A DNA stretch of 64,000 nt from Halomonas huangheensis (GTDB taxonomy: Bacteria > Pseudomonadota > Gammaproteobacteria > Pseudomonadales > Halomonadaceae): positions 2,790,001 to 2,854,000 of the forward strand of contig NZ_CP013106.1 in NCBI RefSeq assembly GCF_001431725.1. Direction: 5' to 3'. The notes beneath the pieces are model-generated. The model did no database searches and was not told the DNA's origin. It saw nothing but the letters and a program-made list of their open reading frames with translations. The first letter of the stretch is position 1, and each line of letters opens with the position of its first letter. Both the position numbers and the translations under genes were made by a program. Positions 1 through 23,859 of the stretch are shown here, piece after piece.

Positions 1-5
1 AATGC

Positions 6-596
6 ATGCCAACAATTGGCAGACTGGCAAGACAGGATGTTATCGCTTTGTCGTCTTACGTGGAAACCATGTTCGAGGGATGGAAGCGTCCGGGATCATC
101 CTCAGCGACCGCCATTGGCAATGTTTTTAACGGGGTAGAGTTTGAGCATGTAGAGGCTGCCGTTGAGAGGTCGTACTTTTTTCAATCCTCACTGGATGAG
201 CATGTTGATAGTCAGAGTATGATAAAGTTCTGTAAATGGCTATTGAATATCGATCCGAATGTTTTAATTGATAAAGTCACTCAGGCGAAGAGTTTGCCAA
301 GCTTTCAAGTGGCCAATCTTCGGAACGTTAAAAGGTTCAGTGAGCTTTGCAAGGGATTGTCTGAGAAACAATATCCGGACGCATTTCACCTATGGACAGC
401 TGAGGTTAATGGTGCAGATTTTTTCTTAACAATTGATAAAAAATTCATTCACGTGATGACTGAAACGAATCGAGTAGACTTGCCTTGCCCTCCACTTTCA
501 CCTTCTCAGCTGCTTAATCAATTAGGAATAGATGAGAGAGATCCCATTGAATACATGGAGGGAGTTTTCTACGACATTTTGGGAAGGCGCGGATAA
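6..596 (+). CDS. Integron cassette protein, possibly PIN-like; 5' end uncertain
   Basis: 196-residue protein of uncertain function. The C-terminal half (residues about 128-150, HLWTAEVNGADFFLTIDKKF) resembles the last strand/helix region of PIN-domain nucleases, where an acidic residue follows a hydrophobic stretch (LTID). The N-terminal half is not recognisable. The frame is open to the window edge and no ribosome binding site is visible, so the true start may lie upstream. Base composition is clearly lower in GC than the host genes to the right. The gene is followed 22 nt later by a candidate attC site, so it is the first visible cassette of an integron array. PIN-like nuclease or toxin is only a suggestion: no complete set of acidic residues was assigned and no antitoxin gene is adjacent. 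Confidence 0.6.
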   Translation: MPTIGRLARQDVIALSSYVETMFEGWKRPGSSSATAIGNVFNGVEFEHVEAAVERSYFFQSSLDEHVDSQSMIKFCKWLLNIDPNVLIDKVTQAKSLPSFQVANLRNVKRFSELCKGLSEKQYPDAFHLWTAEVNGADFFLTIDKKFIHVMTETNRVDLPCPPLSPSQLLNQLGIDERDPIEYMEGVFYDILGRRG

Positions 597-617
597 CAAG
601 AGTTTCGAACCGGCCTT

Positions 618-688
618 GCCTAACAATGCGGTCAACGGGACGCCAACGACGCTGCGCTCCAAATTTGCCGCAGAGCGCGTCGTTAGTT
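618..688 (+). other. Candidate integron attC recombination site 1
   Basis: R'' box GCCTAAC (618-624) matches RYYYAAC exactly. R' box GTTAGTT (682-688) matches GTTRRRY at all but one position. Internal arms TGCGGTCAA and TTGCCGCA pair with a single unpaired T in the left arm, the extrahelical base typical of attC L'' boxes. Length is 71 bp. The two spacers are unequal, so the site may be somewhat degraded. It separates the first and second cassettes. Confidence 0.65.
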
Positions 689-710
689 TCTGAGGACATC
701 GGGAGTAAAA

Positions 711-1400
711 ATGGAAGTTCGCGACATTAAACTTTACATTGATGGACGCTGGCAGCTCACTGATCTCAATGTGCTGACAAGAGTTTATATCCAGCTATAT
801 GGACTTCTTTACTCTCTGGATGTTGCTGATGACTACCTGGACGGGGAAATTCAGTACATATATGGGAAGTATCCTTGGTGCGGCGGATTTAGTGCTGTTA
901 ATTTCTATCAAAACCTTTTCGTTAAAATGCCGCGCGACTACAAGCCTCAGATTCGGTCAATTCAATATGCTTCTCCGGGTTTCATTGAGCTTTCCCAGCT
1001 AGTTGACGTTGCAAAGGATGTTGCCCAGATTGTTGGCTATGTCTCGGCCGCACTACTTGCAGGCAACAAAACCTACAGTACTATCCAGAAGGGGATAAGC
1101 GAAAGGAAGCTTTCGAAAATCAATCTTCGCAGCGAAGAGCTTTCATTGCTCGAAAAAGAAAGAGCATTCATACATAACTCCGTGAATGACATCGCTAGGG
1201 TGATGGGAATAAAAGCTGAGACATTGTCTAAGATTTATTTCCGAACAGAGAATAACGAGTTAGCTGTCCTAAAAATCTTATCATCTGTTTATCGCCGGGC
1301 ACGGGACCTAGCCAAGCTAGAGAACAGCGGTAAGCTGGATTTGAAGAAGGGGCATGCCACAGAGAGTGAAACTAACAATAAAAGGCAGTCGGACTCGTAA
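711..1400 (+). CDS. Hypothetical integron cassette protein
   Basis: 229-residue soluble protein that I do not recognise. Residues about 1-95 form a mixed alpha/beta region rich in aromatic residues (a YGKYPWCGGFSAVNFYQNL segment near 50-70). Residues 100-120 are hydrophobic and Ala/Val-rich (VAQIVGYVSAALLAG), perhaps a single membrane segment or buried helix. The rest is charged and helical with a disordered Lys/Glu/Asn-rich tail. The last residues are encoded inside the downstream attC candidate, so the C-terminus may be partly recombination-site sequence. Low GC and position between two attC-like sites identify it as a promoterless cassette gene. The ATG follows GGGAGTAAAA, a good Shine-Dalgarno sequence. 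Confidence 0.65.
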   Translation: MEVRDIKLYIDGRWQLTDLNVLTRVYIQLYGLLYSLDVADDYLDGEIQYIYGKYPWCGGFSAVNFYQNLFVKMPRDYKPQIRSIQYASPGFIELSQLVDVAKDVAQIVGYVSAALLAGNKTYSTIQKGISERKLSKINLRSEELSLLEKERAFIHNSVNDIARVMGIKAETLSKIYFRTENNELAVLKILSSVYRRARDLAKLENSGKLDLKKGHATESETNNKRQSDS

Positions 1401-1427
1401 ACTCGCCGCTGCTTTGGGGCGTTAGAG
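1370..1427 (+). other. Candidate attC site 2, overlapping the end of the cassette gene
   Basis: R'' AACTAAC (1370-1376) and R' GTTAGAG (1421-1427) can pair through CTAAC/GTTAG. Inside, GCAGTCGG pairs with CCGCTGC leaving one extrahelical T, the attC hallmark. At about 58 bp it is near the short end of known attC lengths. Both outer boxes depart from consensus by one base, so this is the weakest of the three candidate sites. Confidence 0.5.
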
Positions 1428-1467
1428 CTCACGAAGTTTCGAATGTCAGCGTCATTAAAGGACAGAA

Positions 1468-2106
1468 ATGCAAAGCCTTGTAAAACACACACTTTATCTA
1501 TTTCTTTGGATTACTGGTCTCACTGCTGCTATGGCGCTCGCCGGAATTGGCTATGCATGGTTTTCCTCAGAGCCCAAAGAGCTTCCTCATTTAGAGTGGT
1601 TAATTGGTTCCGTAATAATAGAGGTGGTTGTAGTAATTATTATGCTTGCAAAAAAGGGGATGAAGTATCTGCCTGACACGCAAACGGATAAAGAACCAAA
1701 GGACACACTTAAGTTTATGGAGAATTTTATCTCAATGGGAACAAGTGCGACGGTAGTGAGTAACAGAGTTTCATGGCTTGTTGGTGATGATAAATTGACA
1801 TCTATTCTTCAATCCAAAATTGAAAGCGGTACTCGCATTGAAATTATTACGCCAAGTGCAGTTCCAGAGGTGCTCAGAGAAAAGCTGAAAGGCGCATCTT
1901 TCATTATTACAAAAGAACCAGTTTCTCCTGAATCAAGATTTACATTAGTGAATGGCGACCGAAGCGGTGCTGAAAAGCTTGCCATAGCACGAGGCGTTCA
2001 CCCTGATCATGAGATAACAATTTTCGACAATAATTCTGGCCCTCAAATAATTGCAATGGCAAAGGACATAATTAGAAAATCTAAGGAGTTGTCCAATGCC
2101 GCATAG
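1468..2106 (+). CDS. Membrane-anchored integron cassette protein, possible degenerate PLD-like domain
   Basis: 212 residues. Two N-terminal hydrophobic helices (about residues 7-30 and 43-60) are followed by a cytosolic domain of about 140 residues. The segment near residues 110-130 (KIESGTRIEIITPSAVPEVL) resembles the strand region preceding the HKD motif in phospholipase D-like folds, but no HxKxxxxD motif is present, so any catalytic role is doubtful. It begins the third cassette, about 40 nt after attC candidate 2, and its last 11 nt overlap the start of the methyltransferase gene, indicating translational coupling. Low GC. Function unknown; a membrane sensor or effector partnered with the methyltransferase is inference from the overlap only. 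Confidence 0.6.
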   Translation: MQSLVKHTLYLFLWITGLTAAMALAGIGYAWFSSEPKELPHLEWLIGSVIIEVVVVIIMLAKKGMKYLPDTQTDKEPKDTLKFMENFISMGTSATVVSNRVSWLVGDDKLTSILQSKIESGTRIEIITPSAVPEVLREKLKGASFIITKEPVSPESRFTLVNGDRSGAEKLAIARGVHPDHEITIFDNNSGPQIIAMAKDIIRKSKELSNAA

Positions 2107-2803
2107 ATGGTGCAATTCAGCACAAATACGTCGAGAGCAAATTGAGTCAGGGACAGACTTAACATTCAATGAGATATTCAAGCCACTTATAGTAAGCCGC
2201 ATTAATGAACTTAGGCCTGGTCGAGTTCTGGAAGTCGGTGCTGGGACTGGTCACATTTCCATTGAACTATTTAAATTGGGTTATTCGGTCACGGCAATAG
2301 AACCTTCTTTAGGCATGTATTTGGTCGCCCAAGATGTTTTGTCTTCAACCGATGTAAAATTGGTAAACTGCACATCATTCGAGTTAGAGCAAGATACGTT
2401 TTACGAGGTCGCTTTTTCTCACCTTGTTGCACACGTTGTTGATGATCTTTCTGCATTTTTTAGGTCGATCGGACAGCACCTTGAGAAGAACGGACACTTT
2501 ATTTTCTCAATTCCACATCCCTGCTTTTATAATGACTACAAGCGTTTTTTTGGAGATGAATATAATTACATGGTATCAATGACAAAAAACGTGTCATTTA
2601 CCATCACAAAAGATTCACAAAATACAATAAGTGGAGTTCCGTATCACCACAGGCCATTGTCAGAATACTTTAATAAGCTGGTTGATTCCGGTTTCGCTAT
2701 CGACGGCTTTGATGAAACTTACCCAGATGAACATATACAAGAAAAATATGGATCCAAATGGGAAGCTCCGCGATATTGTATGTTTACATGCAAAAAGATC
2801 TAA
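2096..2803 (+). CDS. SAM-dependent class I methyltransferase (integron cassette)
   Basis: 235 residues. The SAM-binding motif I is clear (VLEVGAGTGHISIEL, about residues 44-58), followed by the acidic end of strand 2 (TAIEPS) and a motif III/IV region (FYEVAFSHLVAHVVDDL). This is the Methyltransf_11/25 type that modifies small molecules or proteins; the substrate cannot be told from sequence. The ATG lies inside the end of the upstream membrane-protein gene. The stop codon TAA forms part of the R'' box of the attC site, an arrangement common in integron cassettes. GC content is low compared with the chromosomal genes that follow. Confidence 0.75.
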   Translation: MPHRWCNSAQIRREQIESGTDLTFNEIFKPLIVSRINELRPGRVLEVGAGTGHISIELFKLGYSVTAIEPSLGMYLVAQDVLSSTDVKLVNCTSFELEQDTFYEVAFSHLVAHVVDDLSAFFRSIGQHLEKNGHFIFSIPHPCFYNDYKRFFGDEYNYMVSMTKNVSFTITKDSQNTISGVPYHHRPLSEYFNKLVDSGFAIDGFDETYPDEHIQEKYGSKWEAPRYCMFTCKKI

Positions 2804-2868
2804 CAAACGCATGTTGTCGGATTGGTTTCCGCTACGCTCCAAACCAACCGCAAATGCGGGCGTTATAT
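2798..2868 (+). other. Integron attC site 3, end of the visible cassette array
   Basis: R'' ATCTAAC (2798-2804) matches RYYYAAC exactly and R' GTTATAT (2862-2868) differs from its complement at one position. The inner stem GGATTGGTTT/AAACCAACC pairs with one extrahelical A. A second stem pairs CGCAT with ATGCG. Total length is 71 bp. This is the best preserved of the three sites; no further cassette or integrase gene follows it. Confidence 0.8.
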
Positions 2869-2944
2869 CAGCTTCATCTGAATGGCCGCTTCTGGCCGAA
2901 TGCACAACTTTAGACAATACCGATGGATTAGTTTTGGCAGTCAA

Positions 2945-3895
2945 TTAGTGAGATGCCACATAGATCGACTGGGATTCGGGTGGGGGTAGCTCGAACGTTG
3001 AGCGCATCCAAGCGACTTCGGCTGTCGGCGTACGGCCGAATAGACGTCTGAACTCGCGGCTGAACTGAGAGGGGCTCTCATAGCCGACATCGCTTGCCGC
3101 TACAGCGGCAGTCCTGGCTTGACGAAACATCAGGAGCCGCGCCTGATGAAGCCGGACAGCCTTCACGTATTGCATGGGTGACGTCTGTGTCGCCGCTTTG
3201 AAATGTACATGGAAGGTCGGGACGCTCATACGTGCCTCACGCGCCAGTGACTCGACATCCAGTGGCGTTGCGTAGGCTTCGTGAATACGACGTATCGCAC
3301 GGCTGATACGGCCGAAAGGCGTGGTTGTCCCCAGTGCGGCTCGCATCGCCCCGCCTTGCTCACCTCGAAGTACGCGGAAGTAGATCTCGCGAACCATTTG
3401 GCGACCAAGAATCTTCCCGTCCTCTGGCGACTCCATGATCTCAAGAAAGCGCGACACCGTGTCAGCCAATGCCGGCTCTATCGGTGACGCCATCAGACCG
3501 CATGGCGTTGACGGGCCGCTTATGCCTTCTTCCTCGAGCTCAAGCAGCAGCTCAGCGGCCAGCGGAATATCCAGATGAAGATAAATGGCCAGCAAGGGCT
3601 GTTCGATACTGGCCTCGGTTTCCATGGTAAACGGCACAGGAAGCGATACCGCCAGATAGTGCTGCGCGTCATAGACGTACGTTTGATTGCCCCAATATCC
3701 GCGCTTGCGTCCTTGGCAAACGATGACGATACCCGGGTCATACAGAACAGGCGTCCGGCGCAATGGGCGATTGGAGCGCAGCAAACGCACGTCCGGCAGC
3801 GCGGTCAGGTTGTAGCCTTCTTTTGGTGCCATCCTGGCGAGCAAGTCGACGATGTGCTGCTCTTGATGCGCTAGTTGCATGTCCCGGTCGTTCAT
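2945..3895 (-). CDS. AraC-family transcriptional regulator
   Basis: 316 residues. The N-terminal about 180 residues match the AraC_N type of ligand-binding cupin-like domain (segments DPGIVIVCQGRKRGYWG and YDAQHYLAVSLPVPF). The C-terminal about 110 residues hold the two helix-turn-helix motifs (first helix pair around LDVESLAREARMSVPTFHVH, then AAVAASDVGYESPSQFSREF ending in the typical FRRLFGRTP). It is divergent from the short-chain dehydrogenase gene with about 177 nt between the starts, the common arrangement in which this regulator class controls the neighbouring oxidoreductase. The inducer is unknown. Host-like GC content marks it as outside the integron array. Confidence 0.9.
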   Translation of the reverse strand: MNDRDMQLAHQEQHIVDLLARMAPKEGYNLTALPDVRLLRSNRPLRRTPVLYDPGIVIVCQGRKRGYWGNQTYVYDAQHYLAVSLPVPFTMETEASIEQPLLAIYLHLDIPLAAELLLELEEEGISGPSTPCGLMASPIEPALADTVSRFLEIMESPEDGKILGRQMVREIYFRVLRGEQGGAMRAALGTTTPFGRISRAIRRIHEAYATPLDVESLAREARMSVPTFHVHFKAATQTSPMQYVKAVRLHQARLLMFRQARTAAVAASDVGYESPSQFSREFRRLFGRTPTAEVAWMRSTFELPPPESQSIYVASH

Positions 3896-4915: not shown

Positions 4916-6244
4916 CTACTCTTCTCGAAAGGCCCTACTGAACTGGTCGGTGATAGGCTTGATGAAATACGTCAGTGCGGAGCGCTCTTCGGTGGTGATA
5001 AAGACTTCGACTGGCATACCAGGCAGCAACGAAGGAACGCCGAGTTTTTCAAGCTCTTCTGCAGAAACGTCAACCTCGCCGAGGTAGTAGGGTTCGCCAG
5101 TCGTATCGTCGCGTGTTGTCGCTGCGGAGATATAGACGACCTCACCTTTGAGCTCCGGTGTTGTTCTCTGATTGAAGGCAGTGAAACGGAGCCTGACCGG
5201 CTGTCCAATCCAGAGTTGGTCGATGGTTACTGGAGCAAGTTGCGCTTCGATTTCCAGTTTGGCCCCTTCCGGAACGATCGTGACAAGTTCTTCGGCAGGC
5301 GTGATCACGCCTCCTATCGTATGGATATTCAGCTCATTTATGGTTCCAGAAATCGGCGCGCGAATGTCCGTTCGCGCCAGCCGATCCTCGATGGCGATGC
5401 GCCGGTCACGCAGTTCCGAAAATTCCGCCTCCACGGTACTTAATTCACGCTGTGCCTCGGTACGGGCGTTCTCGTCGATCGCAATAATCTGCAGGCGAAT
5501 TTCACTCATGCGGGTTCTCGCTCTGGCAATGGATGCGTGGATCTCACCGCGTTCACCCGAAAGTTGTGCTCTTTCACGAGCGATCGGAACGAAGCGTGTT
5601 CGTGCGAGCAGCCCCCTGCCAACAAGGCCTTTGTTCGCCTCGTATTCGTCCTCGACTACAATCGATTCCTCGTCTTTCGACTCCCGCTGCGCTTCCAGTC
5701 CCTTTATCTCCTCTTCGATTTGCTCGACGCTGAGTTCGAGCTGCTGCTTCTTGCTTTCGCGACTTGTCCGATTGCCGTGGAAGAGGCGTGTTTCGCCGAG
5801 GAACACATCCGGAGATTCGTCTACGGCCAGATCAGACGGGAACTCGATTGCCGCAAGCCCATCCCGTTCTGCCAGCAGACGCGCCCGCCGGATGGCCAAT
5901 TCCACGAGTTTGGAGCGCACGATCGAAAGCTCCGCCCTGGTCTGTGTGTCCTGGAGCCGCAGCAACACGTCTCCCGCTTGAACGAAGTCCCCTTCCCTGA
6001 TGACTATCTCGCTGACGATGCCGCCATCTGGATGCTGTATCGACTTCAGATTCTGATCCACCGTCACCGATCCTTGCGCGATGATGGCACCACTGAGTTG
6101 AGCGCTCACGGCCCAACTGCCGGCCCCCACCACCAACAGTAGGGCGAGTGCCGCGCCCACACAGACACGCGGACCGAGCCGAAAGGCGTTATCCGGTTTC
6201 GGCAAGGGCTTTCCCGCCCCCTCGGAAAGATCATCTGCGCTCAT
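4916..6244 (-). CDS. Type I secretion periplasmic adaptor (HlyD/PrtE/AprE family)
   Basis: 442 residues. A single membrane helix (about residues 27-48) anchors the protein in the inner membrane. A biotinyl-lipoyl-like strand (IQHPDGGIVSEIVIREGDFVQ) follows, then a long alpha-helical hairpin rich in Glu/Arg (about 100-290). The second lipoyl half is at IRAPISGTINELNI, followed by the C-terminal beta-barrel region. Length and layout match PrtE/AprE adaptors, which bridge the ABC exporter and a TolC-type channel. It is last in the minus-strand operon, 9 nt after the RTX gene stop. No TolC homologue is in the window, so a genomic TolC is presumed. Confidence 0.92.
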   Translation of the reverse strand: MSADDLSEGAGKPLPKPDNAFRLGPRVCVGAALALLLVVGAGSWAVSAQLSGAIIAQGSVTVDQNLKSIQHPDGGIVSEIVIREGDFVQAGDVLLRLQDTQTRAELSIVRSKLVELAIRRARLLAERDGLAAIEFPSDLAVDESPDVFLGETRLFHGNRTSRESKKQQLELSVEQIEEEIKGLEAQRESKDEESIVVEDEYEANKGLVGRGLLARTRFVPIARERAQLSGERGEIHASIARARTRMSEIRLQIIAIDENARTEAQRELSTVEAEFSELRDRRIAIEDRLARTDIRAPISGTINELNIHTIGGVITPAEELVTIVPEGAKLEIEAQLAPVTIDQLWIGQPVRLRFTAFNQRTTPELKGEVVYISAATTRDDTTGEPYYLGEVDVSAEELEKLGVPSLLPGMPVEVFITTEERSALTYFIKPITDQFSRAFREE

Positions 6245-6253
6245 ACTGTGCTC

Positions 6254-8290
6254 CTATGATAGCCACTCAAGACCATCGTCACGCTGTGTAGACCACGACA
6301 GCTTGTGTACTCCCTGAAGCGAGACGGCCGTCGCCCACATTTCATCGTCCTCGAAGTCGGTCTCGACCACGGTCCACTCGCTGCCATCGTCCCGATCATG
6401 GCGATAACGTATCGGCAGATCGTCATCGTCTTCACCGTGATAGATGTGCTCGAAACGGTCGTCCGGCTCGTCGTCGTCCTTCCAGAAAATATCGTACTCA
6501 GACATCCGGATACGGTCTCCGACGCCAAAATCCAGGATCACGTGCGAAACGGCGAGAGATAGACCCCCACCGGCGCTGGCGAACGCAAAGACGTCATCAC
6601 CAGCACCGCCAGCGAGCGTGGCTGCCTCACCACCGAGGATGAAGTGATCGGCCTCACGGCCTCCAAGCACCTTCTCGAACCCGGTGATGGAGTCATCGCC
6701 GATTTCCACACCGCTGACGACACCGCTTACCAGATTGACCACGAGCCCTTTCGTCGCATGGCTGTAGTCCAGAGTGTCCGAGTTCCCGCCGCCACCGTCG
6801 TACACGTCATCGTCCGCATCCAGCGCCGCCACGACCCGATCACTTCCCATGCCACCGAAAACCTGGTCGCGACCTGCGCCGTCGTACAACTTGTCGTCTC
6901 CCGCACCGCCGGTGAGCGTGTCATCTCCTCCGTCACCGTGAACGGAGTCTGCCCCATCCCCCCCAAGCAACAGATCGTCGCCTTCACCGCCGCTCAGGTG
7001 ATCCTCGCCAGTGTTCCCGAAGATCACGTCATCGCCGAATCCGCCAAATAACCTGTCGTCGCCGGCTCCGCCGAAAAGATGGTCGTTGCCAGCGCCGCCG
7101 AAAATAATGTCTTCGCCATCGCCGCCGACCACCACGTCATCACCGTCTCCAGCGACGATGTGGTCGTCTCCCGATCCTCCGATCAGTACGTCGTTGCCGG
7201 CCCGTCCATCAATGTTGTCATCACCACCTGCGCCGTCGATCTCATCGGCACACATGCTGCCGAGAAGCGTGTCGTTTGCCGCAGTCCCCGTGATAACGGG
7301 CTGCTCAACGACGGAGAAACGGGCGACCGCATCGGTCACAAGCTCGCCGTCAGTGACCTGGTAGGTAACAGTCACGGGCCCCGGTTGCCCATCATCGCTC
7401 TGGAAAACCCAACCGCCTTCCGCTTCCGTGAGCGTGCCGGAGGACACGGCCAGGTTTTGAACCGAGAGGACGTCGCCATCGGGATCCTCGGCCTTGCTCA
7501 GCAGGTCATCGAGGGCGATCAGCAGTGCCACGCAAGGCGCCACATCCAGCAGATAGACGGGACCTGATACTCGGGGAGCACGGTTGCCATCGGGCCGGGT
7601 GCCAACATCATCGTCGTCTTCGGGGTCGAGTGTGTCGCTATCCGCAGAGTCATCACCATTCGCAGAGCCATCGCCGTTCGTAGAACCATCGCCATCCGCA
7701 GAGCCATCGCCTTTCGTAGAGCCATCGCCGTTCGTAGCACCGGAGCCATCCACGGGGCCATTGCCTCCGGCGGGCGGGTTATCACCCGGCGGTGATTTGC
7801 CAACCGAAGGACCGCCACCACCGGGTGAGAGGCGATTACCGGCAAGATCAAAAATTTCGGCAGTCGCTGGACTGGCACCGCCCCCTCGGTCCGCCCTTTC
7901 AGCGCCACCATTGGCGCGTGCCGATCCGGATACGGGCACGCCTTCGCTTTCGTTCGGATAGCGAAGGGCCATCGCGGCGGCTATCGGCGTTACCGAGCCG
8001 GGAGATTCGGAGTCAGGCAGATCAGGAGATTCCCGCGGAATGGCACTCTCCTCAACCATGCCCGCTGGAGTTCCGGCATCCGCTGCAGCGGCGGGCGGCT
8101 CCTCCGGCTGCGATGGGGGTATCTGCTCCCGCCCCCAGGAAAAGATCGAGGCCAGGTAAGCAGCGACTCCCGTCAGTAGACCGCCGATAACCAGAGGTGT
8201 GCGAGAGACCTCGTCCCCGCTCTTCAGAACGTAGCGCTGCGAGGCGTCAGTCTCCGGTGAAACGCTCTTCGTACCTTTGACGTTAATCAT
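6254..8290 (-). CDS. Membrane-anchored RTX Ca2+-binding protein encoded within the T1SS operon
   Basis: 678 residues. The N-terminus carries a charged start, a YVLKSGDEVSRTPL segment and one membrane helix (about 33-50). Residues 55-235 are a Pro/Gly/Ser/Asp-rich, disordered stretch including a hexapeptide repeat (DGS-x-x-G). Residues 240-330 look like a cadherin/Ig-type beta domain. Residues about 333-480 hold roughly fifteen GGxGxDxLx nonapeptides forming a Ca2+ beta-roll. The C-terminal domain (520-678) is very acidic. The start overlaps the exporter gene stop by 4 nt (ATGA), implying coupled translation. A TM-bearing RTX protein between exporter and adaptor could be a secretion accessory, a tethered surface protein or a second substrate; these cannot be separated from sequence. 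Confidence 0.85.
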   Translation of the reverse strand: MINVKGTKSVSPETDASQRYVLKSGDEVSRTPLVIGGLLTGVAAYLASIFSWGREQIPPSQPEEPPAAAADAGTPAGMVEESAIPRESPDLPDSESPGSVTPIAAAMALRYPNESEGVPVSGSARANGGAERADRGGGASPATAEIFDLAGNRLSPGGGGPSVGKSPPGDNPPAGGNGPVDGSGATNGDGSTKGDGSADGDGSTNGDGSANGDDSADSDTLDPEDDDDVGTRPDGNRAPRVSGPVYLLDVAPCVALLIALDDLLSKAEDPDGDVLSVQNLAVSSGTLTEAEGGWVFQSDDGQPGPVTVTYQVTDGELVTDAVARFSVVEQPVITGTAANDTLLGSMCADEIDGAGGDDNIDGRAGNDVLIGGSGDDHIVAGDGDDVVVGGDGEDIIFGGAGNDHLFGGAGDDRLFGGFGDDVIFGNTGEDHLSGGEGDDLLLGGDGADSVHGDGGDDTLTGGAGDDKLYDGAGRDQVFGGMGSDRVVAALDADDDVYDGGGGNSDTLDYSHATKGLVVNLVSGVVSGVEIGDDSITGFEKVLGGREADHFILGGEAATLAGGAGDDVFAFASAGGGLSLAVSHVILDFGVGDRIRMSEYDIFWKDDDEPDDRFEHIYHGEDDDDLPIRYRHDRDDGSEWTVVETDFEDDEMWATAVSLQGVHKLSWSTQRDDGLEWLS
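7641..7748 (-). repeat. 18-bp tandem repeat, six units, in the RTX gene linker
   Basis: Six degenerate 18-bp units (pattern TTCGTAGAGCCATCGCCG on the plus strand) encode the hexapeptide DGS(T/A)(N/K/D)G. Unit length is a multiple of three, so copy-number change would lengthen or shorten the disordered linker without a frameshift. Confidence 0.85.
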
Positions 8291-16100: not shown

Positions 16101-19100
16101 GTGGAAGTTGACCTCGTCGTCCTCGGTGCCGAGGATTCCGTCCGCGCCGGGTAACGCCATGTCCGTATTGGCCATGATCAGCTTGGAAAAGGCGTTGTTC
16201 TCGAGCTCGTTGAGCAGGTTCAGGCCCTGGGTCCGCGACAGGTAGTAGAAGCGGTCGCCTTCCTGCAGGTTCTCGAGCTGCAGCTCGAATACCGCATTGA
16301 AGGTGGAACCCAGCATGCCGCCAAAGGGCATGATCTTTTCAGCGAGGCCGCCGATCCAGAGGTCAACCAGGTTGAGTCCGGTCTCCACTCCCGCCCAATC
16401 GCCTGTACCGTTGAGAAACTCCAGGCGATCCGCGATTTCTCCCGCCGGGCTCACAATATCGAGCCGCACGTCCTCTACCAGGATCTGGTTCATTGATCCA
16501 TCGGTCTGCTGGATCTCGATGCTGAGCTCTTGCCCGGCCTGTGCGGCACCGATCAAGCCAGTCTCGATCGAGAAGGTCGCCCAACCGCCATCATCAGCAG
16601 GAGCGGTCAGCGAAACGGTCGCCAACACGACCCCGCCCGCGACGAGCCGCGCTTCTCCGCCGGGCCAATCCTGGTTGGTACGATCACCCACATCGAGCGT
16701 CAGCCGGTAGTTCACACCCTCCTCAAGGGTGATACCGGTGTCCTGGGAAAGCTGCGCGTTCTCGCGGAGCCAGGCCACGTTCGAGCCATCGACACCATTC
16801 GGATCGACCACACTGGCGTCCGGGGCGTAGAGGCCGCCGGTACCGCCGGTCAAGGTCCAGCCGCTCGGCGCTCCGACGCTGTAGTTGCCTTGTGGATCAA
16901 CGTTGACACCTGGCTCTCCCGCGGCCAGCGAGTCCGACTCGAAACCTGCATTGGTGAGCGCGGCTGCCACCGTCTCTGTAGACTCGGCCAGACCCAGAAG
17001 AGCCATCGCCACGTCGCGCTTCTCAACCAGAGTATCGGCAGCCTCCAGCAGCGGATGAGTGCCGTAGGCCGCGATGAAGTTGATAACCGAAGCAGGCGTC
17101 TTCAAGTTGGCGCCGAAATCCGCCCAGCTTTCATAAGGCTTGAGCCAGCTCGAATTGCTCGCGGCATACAATTGTTCACGGGCATCGTTCAGCGAGGGCA
17201 CGCCGGCATCACGACCGCGGGCAATATTGATTGCCGGCAGATCCAACGGCAGGCCAAGCAGGTTGTTGCGCAGCGAATCGGTCACGAACTCATCGATTTC
17301 GTTGCCGTGGACATAGGTCATGCCGCGGAATATCGCTCCGGCCGCCTGCTCTGCGCTGATCGTCTGGTTCTGGTCGAACAGAACCGGGTTGAGGAAGGCC
17401 TCGATCAAGCCCACATCCACACCCCAGTCCTCGATGGGGATGAGATTGCCGTCCGCATCCACTGGCTGCCCCTCATCGTTGAGGGGAAGCAGCTTCAGGT
17501 GGTCAGTCAGCATCGAATGACCGAAGCGGTAGACAGTGTGGGCGAACTCGGCAAAGATCGCCGGATCGACATCGGTCACGGTGTTGAAGACGAAGACATC
17601 GATCAGCGGCGAGACCTTACGGCCGAACTCCTCGAACACGAGGTGCTGGTACTGCATCTCAGTGGAGAAACGCGCGGTCTGGAACAGACGCTCGCCGTCC
17701 CAGTTGAGCGCATTAGGGTCGAACCCGGCAACGACCGGATCGATCAACCACTCGTTGAGGAAGTCGATATCACCGGCTTCGGCAAGTTCGAGGATCTGCC
17801 TCTTGACGTCCTCGACCTGGCGATTGTGCTCGGAGTGGAAAACGTGGTGCACGGCGGTGAGGCCGATGTTTTCGTTACCACGACCGTCGCCGACGATGAA
17901 GTGGCGGTCGAGCAGTTCGTTGTCGTAGAAGGTCTCACCGGTATTCGGATCCACCGGAACCGGATCGCCGATCGGGTCGGTGCCGGAGTTCGGATCAGGC
18001 ATCAGGATCGCCGGCTGTCCTTCGGCTCCCGCCACCAGCACCGGCACCGCATTATGGGCGATGTCGTCAAGGAAGGCATGCGAGGTGCGGACCGGACCGC
18101 GGCCATCATTCAGCTCGGACAGCACAATCGGGTTGGCAGCCGTGCCGCTGACGGTCACATCGTCGGCAGTGTTCGGAATGAGATCCGGGCCGATATTGAC
18201 CACCACCTGCGGGAAGCCATTCTCGTCGCGGATGAATTCGCCGTAGGGATCGGTGCGCAGCAGAGGAACGCCGAAGACGTCGCGGTCATCGAGGTCGATC
18301 CCGAGCTTCTCGCGCGCCTGGTCCTTGACGTCCTTCCAGGTGGCCAGACCGCCACTTTCACCATTGAGCAACCGGCCACTCGCCATCGGCTTGCCGTCAA
18401 CCATCTCGTAATGGCGCAGGAATACCTGGTGTGACGGATGCGAGGTGTAGGTCTGATTCTGGTCGACGAACGGCGTCGTCTTGTTTCTTGCTTCCGGCGT
18501 GTCGTCGTCAGTTCCCAGAATGCCATCGGCCCCCGGCCCCATGGACGGTGCCAGACGTGTCAGCACCAGCGGCATGTTGACGTCCACCTCGTCGCCGCTG
18601 TCTGGAATGCCGTCAGGCCCGTGGGTGACAAGCGGATCGTCCGCCGTCAGCGGCATGTAGATCGTGCCGTTATCGCCCTTGTGAATCAGGTCGAGACCAT
18701 GGTCAAAGAACTGGCCGAAGAAGGTCATCCAGCCGTTGAATGGTGCCGATAGCCCCTCGTCCGGCGCCACGTTGGGCAGCAGGATGGTATTGCCGTCCAT
18801 CTCAATGCCGAAGGTGTCGGACAACTCCTGGTCCATGACGGCCTTCGCTGCGTCGAGCGCCGGCTTGAGCGCCTCACGCGCCGCAGCCACAGTCTCTTCA
18901 GTGGTGGCCAGCGCTTGCTGGGCCGCAGCCAGGCTCGCCTCTGCATCGTCGATGGCAACCTGATCACCGCCCTGCTGTGCCGCCTCGAGAGCATCCTCAG
19001 CAGCGGTGACCACATCCTTCGCCGCGTTCACCTGCTGCGCCAGTGGCTGATACGCCGTCACTGCAGGGTCGTTGAGAAACTCGGCGTAGCGCGCCCGCAC

Positions 19101-20477: not shown

Positions 20478-20900
20478 TCAGTACTGGGACAACAGCTCTT
20501 CCACTACCGGCGTCATCTTGCTGCTTACGCTAGCCCACTTGCTGAAGTCAAAGCCGCCCTTGCCTGTCAGATGGTATTCCGCATAGGCAACCCGTTCCTC
20601 ACCCTTGAACATCCTGAGCTCAGCGTGGGAGAGATACGGCGTGAAGTCCCATGACCTCAGCGCGGTGTAGGTCATCCTGTATTCGCAATGTGCCGGTGTC
20701 GCTCCGGAGTAGAGTTCTGTTGTAATCGAGTGATCGTGGAACACGTCAGTCACAGCGTCGACGAAGCCGTCCACGATCACCTTGGGGTTATCCTCGATAC
20801 AGACATTCGACACGCTGTACGAGCGATCCAGCGGCGTGACCTGAATGGATGTACAACCGGAAACGGTCATCAGCACCGCCACCACAGCACATTTCTTCAA
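20478..20900 (-). CDS. Small lipoprotein, Sbal_3080-like family
   Basis: 140 residues with a lipoprotein signal (MKKCAVVAVLMTVSGC, lipobox Cys16). The mature part contains CIEDNPKVIVDGF, CEYRMTYTALRSWDF, YLSHAELRMF and YHLTGKGGFDFSKW, a pattern I associate with the uncharacterised Sbal_3080 lipoprotein family. Two further cysteines (in VCIED and HCEY) may form a disulphide in the periplasm. It is monocistronic, flanked by gene-poor DNA on both sides. Function unknown. Confidence 0.75.
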   Translation of the reverse strand: MKKCAVVAVLMTVSGCTSIQVTPLDRSYSVSNVCIEDNPKVIVDGFVDAVTDVFHDHSITTELYSGATPAHCEYRMTYTALRSWDFTPYLSHAELRMFKGEERVAYAEYHLTGKGGFDFSKWASVSSKMTPVVEELLSQY

Positions 20901-21342
20901 TCCAACGTCCTTGCCAAGCTACCTGGTTTCGTGGGGCAAATCGGGCCTATCACCATGCGCCCCGCCCACCGCTTATCGGCAGCCTAGAAGTCACCTTGAG
21001 TCGAAGTGATCCACCTTCTGACGGACTTAGTCACTGCTTACCTTGCGAGTCGCGTAGCGAGGTACTACCGCCCTCCCGCACTCCCTAAGGCACGGTTCCC
21101 GCTGCGTCCATCAGGCATGGATTGATAAGAAAAAACGTTCAGAAAAATGGGGAAAATCATAATTGTCTGCTATAAGAGACATGATGCATATATGAAGGGT
21201 GATAGCGATGCGGGTGGGCTCGGTAGAGTCGTTGTAACGAATAGTCGATTAATGACCGGTTACGGCCCAAAGCGGATGTCTTATTTTTACTCCGACTCCA
21301 AAGTTAGGAAAATGGAAAATATCGTTTACAGAGAGGCTCTGT
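20901..21342. other. Non-coding junction before the RloC islet
   Basis: The first half has host-like GC and only short unrecognised frames. From about 21130 the DNA becomes AT-rich, marking the left edge of the acquired segment. A 79-codon frame at 21147-21386 overlaps the RloC start by 44 nt and has no family signature, so it is not annotated as a gene. The RloC promoter must lie here. Confidence 0.5.
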
Positions 21343-23745
21343 ATGCTGAAAAAGATACAACAGATAAAGAAGCTCGGCGTTTTTGAGGATTTTTCTTGGG
21401 ATCATGAAGTAAAGAGCAATGGTGGTGCCGTTCAAAGCTTTGTTGATATAAATATTATCTACGGGCGCAACTATTCTGGAAAAACAACGCTTTCACGTAT
21501 TGCTCGTGCATTAGAAACGGGTGAAATTTCTGAAAAATTTGGCTCCCCTTCATTGAGTCTAAAATTCTCCGATAACTCCGAAATAGCTCAAGCGAATCTG
21601 ACAGCGCATGGAAAAACTTCACGAGTATTTAATGAAGATTTCACAAGAGAAAACTTGAAATTTATCACTAACCCAGATGACAGTATAGAGCCATTTGCCA
21701 TTCTTGGTGATGATAACAACAAAGTTGAGAAAGAAATTAAAGAGATAGAAGCGGAGCTAGGGTCAAGTGAAGAAGGCCAAGAAAGTGGTTTGTTTTCGGA
21801 AAGAAAATCCGCTTTTGATGACTACTCCGAGGCTTTTCAATCGCACAAAACAGCTAACGATAACCTCAAAAGGCAATTAGGTGACAAAGCAACTAATAAA
21901 AATATTGGTATAAAATATAAACCAGAGCGATTTGGCGATCAAAACTATACAATCAAAAAATTGGAAGATGACTTGGCAGAGGTTCAAAAATCTAACTTTC
22001 AACCATTGACTGATGAGAAAATCGCACAGCACGAAAAGCTCATTGAAGAAAAAACTCTTCCCAACATACCCAAACTCACACCGCCCAACCTGAGCTTTAC
22101 CATTTTTGTTAAAGAAGCCGGTTTATTAGTCACAAAGGAAATCAGTGAATCTGACAAGATTGAAGAATTAGTTAAAGATGCCGTTTTAAATCGTTGGGTA
22201 AATGAAGGTCGCATGCATCACAGAGGCAAGCATGAAAAATGCGCCTTTTGCGACAATGCAATTTCGCAGGAACGCTGGAAAGATCTGGACAAACACTTTG
22301 ATGAAGAGTCTGAGAAACTAGACAAAGATATTGAGGCCTTGGTTAAACGTATTGAGGATGAGAAAAAATCTATCAGCACAGCTTTGACCATTAACCCGTC
22401 ACGCTTTTATTCTAAATTTCATATTCAACTTTCCGAACTAAACTCAACGCTTAAGTCGGCTGTTACTGAGTATCAATATTCCTTAGAAGCACTGATTTCG
22501 CAGCTAACGAGTAGGAAAAACGATATATTGAATGCTAAAAAATTCGCTCATCCTGTTGATTATTCAACTGAATTAGAATCTGCTTGGGATGACTACAAAA
22601 ATATTTGCAATGAATCTGACTTATTCAGTAGCTCTTTGAATAGCGAGCAATCCAGTGCCAGAAGAGCGCTAAGATTAAAAGAGGTTGCAGATTACCTAAT
22701 CACCATTGATTACCATTCGCAGCTCGATTCTATAGCTGCCTTACAAGAAAAACTGGACAAAGCGTCTAGAGAAAAGGTGCGTATTTCCGAGGAAATCACT
22801 CAAAAGCAAACATTGATTAGTGCAAAAAAACGTGATCTAAATGATGAAGAAAAAGGCGCCAAAAAGGTTAATGAATATCTCAACAATTTCTTTGGTCATA
22901 AGTTCTTGACACTTGAATCCAAAAAGGATGCGGAAAATTCAAAGCGCATTCGTTTCGAAGTTATACGAGATGGAAAGAAAGCTTATCACCTCAGCGAGGG
23001 AGAATGCAGCCTTTTGGCGTTTTGTTATTTCTTGGCAAAACTAGATGATATTGAGACGCGAGATTCAAAGCCAATTATTTGGATTGACGACCCTATTTCA
23101 TCACTGGACGGAAATCATATTTTCTTTATATATAGCTTAATAAGCACCGAGATTGTTGCCAAAGGAGAATTTGAGCAACTATTCATATCAACACACAACC
23201 TTGATTTCCTAAAGTATTTGAAAAAATTGAAAGGTAGCTATATTAATTCTACGGGTGGAAATATCGGATTCCAGAAAGCTTATTTTATGGTTGTTAGGCA
23301 GGATAGGAAATCCACCGTCCAAGTTATGCCTTCCTATCTAAAGGAATATGTCACAGAGTTTAACTTTCTCTTTCACCAAATTCATAAATGCGCAACGATG
23401 GGATCTGTTGACGACACTAACTATATTACTTTCTACAACTTTGCCAACAATGCGAGGAAGTTCTTCGAAATCTACCTCTACTACAAATACCCAGACCAAG
23501 GAATGAATGAAGGAACACTCAATCTATTCTTTGGCAATGATAGTGTACCAGCTGTTTTGGCCGATCGAATAAATAATGAATATTCACATTTATGCGGGGT
23601 ATTTGAAAGAGGAGCAACGCCGGTTGAAGTTCCAGAGATGCAACTGGCGGCCCGACAAATTATAGAAAAGCTAAAAGAAGATAGCGAACAATACTCCGCA
23701 TTGCTAAGAAGTGTTGGTGAGCCTCCTGAGGCGGGAGATGTATGA
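21343..23745 (+). CDS. rloC: RloC/PrrC-family anticodon nuclease with ABC-type ATPase
   Basis: 800 residues of the AAA_13 family. The ATPase has Walker A GRNYSGKT (41-48), a signature-like LSEGE (550-554), Walker B IIWIDDP (578-584) and switch His618 (STHN). Two long coiled-coil stretches flank a central CxxC (Cys300-Cys303), comparable to the RloC zinc hook. The C-terminal HEPN-like nuclease region keeps the Arg-x3-Glu pair (Arg705, Glu709) and a distal His749 (NNEYSH), the anticodon-nuclease triad of PrrC/RloC that cuts tRNA in the anticodon loop to abort phage infection. No restriction-modification genes are adjacent. Its AT-rich codon usage contrasts sharply with neighbours, indicating recent transfer. 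A GAGG ribosome site precedes the ATG. Confidence 0.85.
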   Translation: MLKKIQQIKKLGVFEDFSWDHEVKSNGGAVQSFVDINIIYGRNYSGKTTLSRIARALETGEISEKFGSPSLSLKFSDNSEIAQANLTAHGKTSRVFNEDFTRENLKFITNPDDSIEPFAILGDDNNKVEKEIKEIEAELGSSEEGQESGLFSERKSAFDDYSEAFQSHKTANDNLKRQLGDKATNKNIGIKYKPERFGDQNYTIKKLEDDLAEVQKSNFQPLTDEKIAQHEKLIEEKTLPNIPKLTPPNLSFTIFVKEAGLLVTKEISESDKIEELVKDAVLNRWVNEGRMHHRGKHEKCAFCDNAISQERWKDLDKHFDEESEKLDKDIEALVKRIEDEKKSISTALTINPSRFYSKFHIQLSELNSTLKSAVTEYQYSLEALISQLTSRKNDILNAKKFAHPVDYSTELESAWDDYKNICNESDLFSSSLNSEQSSARRALRLKEVADYLITIDYHSQLDSIAALQEKLDKASREKVRISEEITQKQTLISAKKRDLNDEEKGAKKVNEYLNNFFGHKFLTLESKKDAENSKRIRFEVIRDGKKAYHLSEGECSLLAFCYFLAKLDDIETRDSKPIIWIDDPISSLDGNHIFFIYSLISTEIVAKGEFEQLFISTHNLDFLKYLKKLKGSYINSTGGNIGFQKAYFMVVRQDRKSTVQVMPSYLKEYVTEFNFLFHQIHKCATMGSVDDTNYITFYNFANNARKFFEIYLYYKYPDQGMNEGTLNLFFGNDSVPAVLADRINNEYSHLCGVFERGATPVEVPEMQLAARQIIEKLKEDSEQYSALLRSVGEPPEAGDV

Positions 23746-23859
23746 TATATACTTCCGCACAGTATCTATCAAATAGCTCCCAACAAGTTCCAATGTTTTT
23801 TTGGGAATGCGCTAGGGGTTTGATCGTCCGCTTTTGGCCGCAAACAGCCTCCCAGGCCA

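Follow-up and report, generated by a model that had tools for sequence, protein, structure and literature searches.

Layout of the array

The stretch analysed here, hereafter the window, comprises 64,000 nucleotides (bases 2790001-2854000) of the 4,757,486-base single-contig genome of Halomonas huangheensis, and its left edge cuts through an array of integron gene cassettes without an integron integrase gene (intI) beside it. The array begins 1.7 kb to the left of the window, which opens inside the third cassette. The whole unit occupies genome positions 2788261-2792902 (approximately 4.6 kb) and consists of a head module with a putative attI site, five cassettes in the same direction (A-E), each closed by an attC site, and a tail palindrome. 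The GC content of the cassettes is 40-45%, compared with 58% for the window. The features are as follows, with genome coordinates where so marked and window coordinates elsewhere.

Genome 2788374-2788431: attI (58 bp), before cassette A, assigned by similarity to attI sites beside intI
Genome 2788441-2788986: cassette A gene, NTP_transf_6 (Pfam)
Genome 2788981-2789058: attC of cassette A; covariance model E 0.031 (18981-19058 of locus L007), box-and-fold score 28.8
Genome 2789073-2789747: cassette B gene, no match in Pfam or PADLOC
Genome 2789751-2789807: attC of cassette B; box-and-fold score 20.2, covariance model 7.5 bits and E 2 in a search of smaller scope run without filters
Genome 2789814-2790596 (its 3' part is window 1-596), plus strand: cassette C gene, open reading frame (ORF) of 260 amino acids (aa) with weak PIN-domain similarity
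618-688, plus strand: attC of cassette C (71 bp); covariance model E 8.6e-10, 48.4 bits; boxes GCCTAAC/GTTAGTT; arms look chimeric, poor fold
711-1400, plus strand: cassette D gene (229 aa), PD-T4-10_B-like; PADLOC PDLC04024, E 7.1e-35
1370-1427, plus strand: attC of cassette D (58 bp); box-and-fold score 28.9, covariance model E 0.018; boxes AACTAAC/GTTAGAG; overlaps the gene end
1468-2106, plus strand: cassette E gene 1 (212 aa), with a hydrophobic N-terminus and a conserved C-terminal part
2096-2803, plus strand: cassette E gene 2 (235 aa), predicted S-adenosylmethionine (SAM)-dependent methyltransferase; Pfam Methyltransf_23, E 4.2e-12; overlaps gene 1
2798-2868, plus strand: attC of cassette E, last in the array (71 bp); box-and-fold score 38.7, covariance model E 9.6e-8; boxes ATCTAAC/GTTATAT
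2880-2902, plus strand: tail motif GAATGGCCGCTTCTGGCCGAATG, similar to a motif that closes 17 of 28 intI-less units behind their last attC
2945-3895, minus strand: right flank, AraC-family regulator (Pfam AraC_N); proteins 95% identical, conserved in genomes G044 and G037

Identity of the attC sites

Thirty-six attC sites, chosen by box and fold from arrays adjoining intI in relatives, were used as a training set; two sites resembling the attC of cassette A were excluded, and one that is 76% identical to the attC of cassette E (L047:4402-4473) was kept. Two tests were built from these sites: (i) a score combining the boxes with the bottom-strand fold, and (ii) a covariance model (model R1), which was limited to seven hand-given box pairs because MAFFT aligns attC loops badly. 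The covariance search covered the window together with 20 kb of leftward sequence, and its top four bottom-strand matches all lay in the array (618-688, 2798-2868, 1370-1427 and the attC of cassette A). Beyond the array, a single match up to E 10 was returned, to the left of the window at E 3.8, with none elsewhere in the window. The best background box-and-fold score was 21.7 (window 5001-64000, both strands), compared with 38.7 and 28.9 at the third and second sites of the window. The opposite strand was unfit as a control for the strict-box scan, since the two boxes are mutual complements.

An earlier, sequence-only reading of the window had described three attC-like inverted-repeat sites, with R''/R' boxes, between plus-strand genes, and had proposed a covariance-model search. 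Bottom-strand matches were obtained at all three sites (E values listed above), which share one orientation and two of which are indeed 71 bp long. The sites do lie between cassette genes, although the start of the second overlaps the 3' end of its gene. The single extrahelical base that had been proposed for each site fared less well, given that the third site has three unpaired bases on one bottom-strand arm and the T of the first appears only when the arms are paired by hand. The bottom-strand fold is good at 2798-2868, weaker at 1370-1427 and poor at 618-688, a site with good boxes and 8 arm pairs that the fold-based scan did not report. By eye, the arms of this site look like halves of two attC types common in relatives, and thus pair poorly. 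We infer a fusion at a shared loop motif, and the cassettes between may have been removed.

The attI site and the head module

In other genomes, matches to the 58-bp block (76-95%) stand between intI and the first cassette, at a distance of approximately 180-240 bp from where the intI match starts. It is by this resemblance that the block is called a putative attI. Five attI-like sites were found in the H. huangheensis genome. Three, at 95-100%, belong to intI-less arrays (2788370, 3391253 and 3410434), and the remaining two, in a decayed integron, reach only 78-81%. Approximately 110 bases to the left of attI, opening with CGACCCAAAGCGG, recur together with attI elsewhere; this leader had no BLAST match in intI loci, where short resemblances only were seen by eye. 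Leader and attI form a head module of approximately 170 bp ending in attI, which was found in 30 copies from 22 genomes of 7 genera, with about 21 different left flanks, a count that concerns fetched loci only (a few further full-length copies were listed and left unfetched). Three copies are in the H. huangheensis genome.

At least one attC candidate was found after 28 of the 30 copies, scoring above the background maximum after 27, and two copies stop at a contig end. Searches by tblastn with six IntI proteins matched 3 of 66 context loci and none of the 30 module copies (context 3.5-20 kb). A longer second form of the head occurs in further loci. With both forms counted, the 62 loci contain 61 heads, of which 50 have an attI-like site no more than 330 bp away. 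A 26-mer of the head, at up to three mismatches, was present in 50 of 275 genomes of the family and in none of the 275 for the reversed control; the 26-mer undercounts, since only one of the three units in this genome passes it. When up to six mismatches were allowed, the intI loci (349 kb) yielded a single occurrence. Genome contigs were also scanned with a 24-base pattern of the module, which hit nine stretches, all in Halomonas or Onishia records.

The possibility that CGACCCAAAGCGG is a common host repeat was considered and rejected (13 matches at up to one mismatch, 22 in the reversed control). One case, G163 compared with G162, raises the idea that the head itself may be a target of IntI. 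The two further intI-less units of the H. huangheensis genome lie in L088 (3403000-3419000) and L108 (3379000-3395000), the latter with one cassette.

Absence of an integrase

Six tyrosine recombinases exceed the Pfam cut-off in the genome, none of them near the window and the nearest more than 500 kb away. An integron-integrase profile run over the genome returned only pieces or other recombinases, all under the curated cut-off, and no intact intI. Pieces of intI were found at three places in 1801757-1807026, 1 Mb from the array, beside attI-like and attC sites. The region 1801757-1810600 (L010) is a decayed integron, with two attI-like sites and seven attC model matches at E of at most 1. 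At the array itself, more than two attC sites and no neighbouring IntI were found, which places it among the clusters of attC sites lacking an integrase (CALIN), defined by at least two such sites; a complete integron has intI beside attI. The sequence-only reading had offered an integron or a CALIN, with the integrase, if any, to the left, and had suggested looking there for intI and attI. The CALIN option is the one supported, as no intI was found leftward, whereas attI and two more cassettes were.

Different cassettes at the same locus

The right flank of genome G044 is 90% identical to the window from the last attC onward, and that of G037 is 88% identical from window 2920, without the attC. 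The window and G044 have no cassette in common and share 65 bases of the last attC. Five other loci are shared between genomes of different species (4, 2, 2, 2 and 2 genomes), with left flanks 84-92% alike, and their arrays have no more than a single attC stretch (74-82 bases) in common. Such differences in cassettes at a shared locus are what is expected from an active platform; homologous recombination of larger segments is a rival account and is weighed below.

The tail motif was scored as 15 bases with at most four substitutions within 75 bases after an attC. By this criterion it followed 17 of 28 last attC sites in intI-less units and 1 of 50 internal ones. In 19 intI loci it followed 1 of 111 attC sites, by a weak match, a comparison limited by the 19-kb length of these stretches, some of which may stop before the last attC. 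The rule for the last attC admitted weak sites (score of at least 16), and some "last" sites are doubtful, such as that of L114, where the tail follows an earlier attC. In tandem units, the tail is followed by a head 79-89 bases on (L151, L154, L157, L158 and L159). By eye, the two ends of the unit are related palindromes whose similarity is about the same whether they are compared directly or inverted, and there was no sign of a target duplication.

Interpretation and alternative explanations

The array is best explained, with a probability of about 0.68, as one of a family of dispersed, refillable intI-less integron platforms, which are headed by attI, often ended by a tail, and filled in trans. 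A deletion derivative of an integron would keep attI and lose intI, and the intI-less unit would then spread as a block to new loci, where IntI made elsewhere in the cell would fill and reshuffle it. Recombination would take place on the bottom strand of attC folded as a hairpin, with the crossover between the G and TT of the R' box, a mechanism known from class 1 integrons. The palindromic head and tail suggest that block transfer would use an event in which they are involved. In the H. huangheensis genome the array is probably static now, because the only IntI traces found there are fragments. The analysis suggests that some arrays of this kind did not arise by decay of an integron but are refillable platforms that have been transplanted.

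Several findings weigh against this explanation. Right flanks are alike (86-97%) at only two of the five shared loci, which reduces confidence in it. Only 6 of the 22 carrier genomes have an IntI above the cut-off elsewhere, with no more than seven candidates per genome scored, which means that in most of them action in trans cannot be going on at present. No attI-like site lies within 330 bp of 11 of the 61 heads, 11 of the 28 last attC sites have no tail by the pattern used, and the tail comparison with intI loci carries the limit given above. The attC of cassette B is a weak match. Two joined-flank searches for an empty site or empty platform returned occupied loci only. The left-end motif CGRCCCAAAGCGG was also seen at window 21263, behind another copy of the left flank and with no array attached, and it may therefore belong to the target rather than to the unit. 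Finally, a search of the head region for a sigma-70-like promoter gave no match, so that expression from the head is a guess.

The strongest alternative, although an unlikely one, is that cassette differences at shared loci arose by homologous recombination of whole segments between strains and not by IntI in trans. The left flanks at five loci (84-92%) and the right flanks at two (86-97%) would permit such exchange, and 16 of the 22 carrier genomes have no IntI above the cut-off. However, the head and left flank are shared (as is the right flank at two loci), and it is roughly the region between attI and the last attC that differs, as IntI action predicts.

Integrase-less arrays are usually read as decayed integrons, and for this array such a reading, under which it would be what remained after loss of intI in situ, is a little less likely again. 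The genome does hold a decayed integron at 1.80 Mb, with intI fragments, attI-like sites and attC sites. However, the attI-like sites of that integron differ (78-81%), in contrast to the 95-100% identity among the three units. Furthermore, about 21 different left flanks, from 7 genera, adjoin one and the same left boundary and spacer before attI. Losses that happened independently are an improbable source of such agreement, and the near absence of the tail from intI loci also speaks against loss in place.

Insertion of cassettes at secondary genomic sites (attG-type), with no platform, has been reported in print (available parts of PMC12444791 and PMC12901181) and is very improbable here, as the array begins with a complete attI and its conserved leader (approximately 110 bp), both at this locus and at 29 other places.

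Cassette cargo

The cassette genes are probably kept by selection on their function, and one is probably a phage defence gene, as judged by homology. The sequence-only reading had remarked that cassettes often encode defence; here this applies to a single cassette, D, whose product is PD-T4-10_B-like. The cassette D protein covers positions 139-347 of the 353 in the PD-T4-10_B profile, with the first 138 or so missing. In the known PD-T4-10 toxin-antitoxin phage defence system, B is paired with A; according to the available part of PMC9519451, B is toxic, A neutralises B, and loss of B abolishes T4 resistance. Cassette D resembles the B component only, and PADLOC identified no PD-T4-10_A partner among the cassette genes. 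The homologue search gave 93 proteins, the query included, of which one is 320 aa and 92 are 125-243 aa (some of them fragments), so the short form is usual.

Relatives of the cassette D protein at 76-93% occur in Salinicola, Aeromonas, Pectobacterium and Methylohalobius, and a class-wide search at E of at most 1e-20 found it in 3 of 369 genomes, this one included. The protein had no match in phages and matched two plasmid records at 31-36% identity; its DNA had no match in Escherichia coli genomes. An AlphaFold2 (AF2) model of cassette D has a predicted local distance difference test (pLDDT) score of 83.5, and Foldseek of this model against the PDB returned no match at E of at most 0.001 and 281 at E of at most 10.

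Gene 1 of cassette E matched 355 proteins at E of at most 0.001, with 57-93% identity among the 120 matches listed, from Vibrio, Aeromonas, Pectobacterium, Shewanella and others. The cassette D gene and cassette E gene 1 thus occur in distant hosts, as expected of integron cassettes. The structure prediction for gene 1 (pLDDT 61.9) was too poor for use. The two-gene order of cassette E also occurs in G028 (L089). The ratio of nonsynonymous to synonymous substitution rates (dN/dS) relative to G062 is 0.062 for gene 1 and 0.105 for gene 2 (dS being saturated relative to G028), and by these ratios the cassette E genes are under purifying selection. In G062 itself (L084 8933-11895), the methyltransferase gene appears by eye to be split by approximately 3 kb of transposase-like genes.

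The cassette C product matched the Pfam PIN domain at E 0.066, under the cut-off, and its homologue search returned 76 proteins, one named 'predicted nucleic acid-binding protein'. PADLOC gave one match only on the other cassette genes, mad2 to the methyltransferase (E 7.4e-18). A candidate defence gene, PDC-S31 (E 3.4e-14), sits in the single cassette of the L108 unit.

Neighbouring genes and palindrome-bounded units

By eye in the ORF list, an RTX-like glycine-aspartate repeat protein (6254-8290) adjoins a secretion-adaptor-like protein (4916-6244) in window 4916-8290, and an Rfam scan of the window returned nothing at gathering thresholds. Farther right, in window 20478-23844, the left-flank lipoprotein gene occurs again (92% identical DNA over 800 bp), followed by a head-like motif at 21263 and a tail-like motif at 23822. 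The gene between the motifs encodes an 800-aa AAA_13 ATPase (PADLOC PDC-S06, E 0), in a layout like that of a cassette unit but with cargo of the defence type.

Similar arrangements were observed in other genomes. The loci L149 (G174) and L121 (G183) have flanks 90-93% alike and head-like and tail-like motifs at their ends; G174 has SIR2/ThsA-like, PDC-S08 (5'-nucleotidase) and adenosine deaminase genes where G183 has an attI-cassette unit. In distant Gammaproteobacteria (L171-L180; G368 and G285), single genes, in some cases arranged in tandem, lie between palindromes of the head-like and tail-like kind.

A broader proposal, which we regard as doubtful, is that the palindromes CGACCCAAAGCGGACATT (head) and AATGTCCGCTTYTGGCCG (tail) mark exchangeable gene units without transposase or integrase in Gammaproteobacteria, with attI arrays as one cargo and single genes, some of them for defence, as others. 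If so, some CALINs would belong to a mobile system by which entire integron platforms are transplanted. Two results count against it: the pattern GTCCGCTTYTGGCCGAAAGCGGAC (at most three mismatches) occurred in only 20 of 369 genomes of the class, compared with 4 for the reversed control, and the full palindrome had no match in the H. huangheensis genome.

Relation to known systems and significance

Like a CALIN, the unit has several attC sites and cassettes in one direction with no intI nearby, and it differs in having an attI, a conserved head and tail, three copies in the genome and many loci in relatives. With complete sedentary chromosomal integrons it shares attI, an attC array and cassettes common to distant hosts; it differs from them in the missing intI, the tail palindrome after the last attC and the leader without a BLAST match in intI loci. 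Two further comparisons are integrons flanked by miniature inverted-repeat transposable elements (MITEs) and, separately, Tn3-derived inverted-repeat miniature elements (TIMEs), likewise non-autonomous blocks that can carry integron parts between short end repeats. In the available excerpts, however, those cases concern resistance-gene integrons, while the ends here are palindromic motifs of unproven role, with no target duplication seen. A MITE-like transposable element would have terminal repeats and copies at different loci; the present unit has related palindromes at its ends and copies at about 21 left flanks.

As far as the available parts of the sources go, CALINs have been described at recurring loci in Xanthomonas (PMC12444791), attI-type cassettes have been reported (PMC12901181), and halophiles have been mined (PMC7923331, in whose main text, as available, the word Halomonas does not occur). 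No description of dispersed intI-less attI platforms was found in the literature searched, which is weak evidence given that most subscription papers lie outside that search, and the palindrome strings did not occur in it.

The intI-less array itself had been foreseen; the new part is its membership in a family that is headed by attI and often ended by a tail. A platform that recurs at many loci, with up to three per genome among the fetched loci, and that carries different cassettes at the same locus in different species, offers another origin for CALINs. Under the platform reading a single integrase could act on several loci, and the dispersal of defence-type cassettes over the chromosome would be accounted for.

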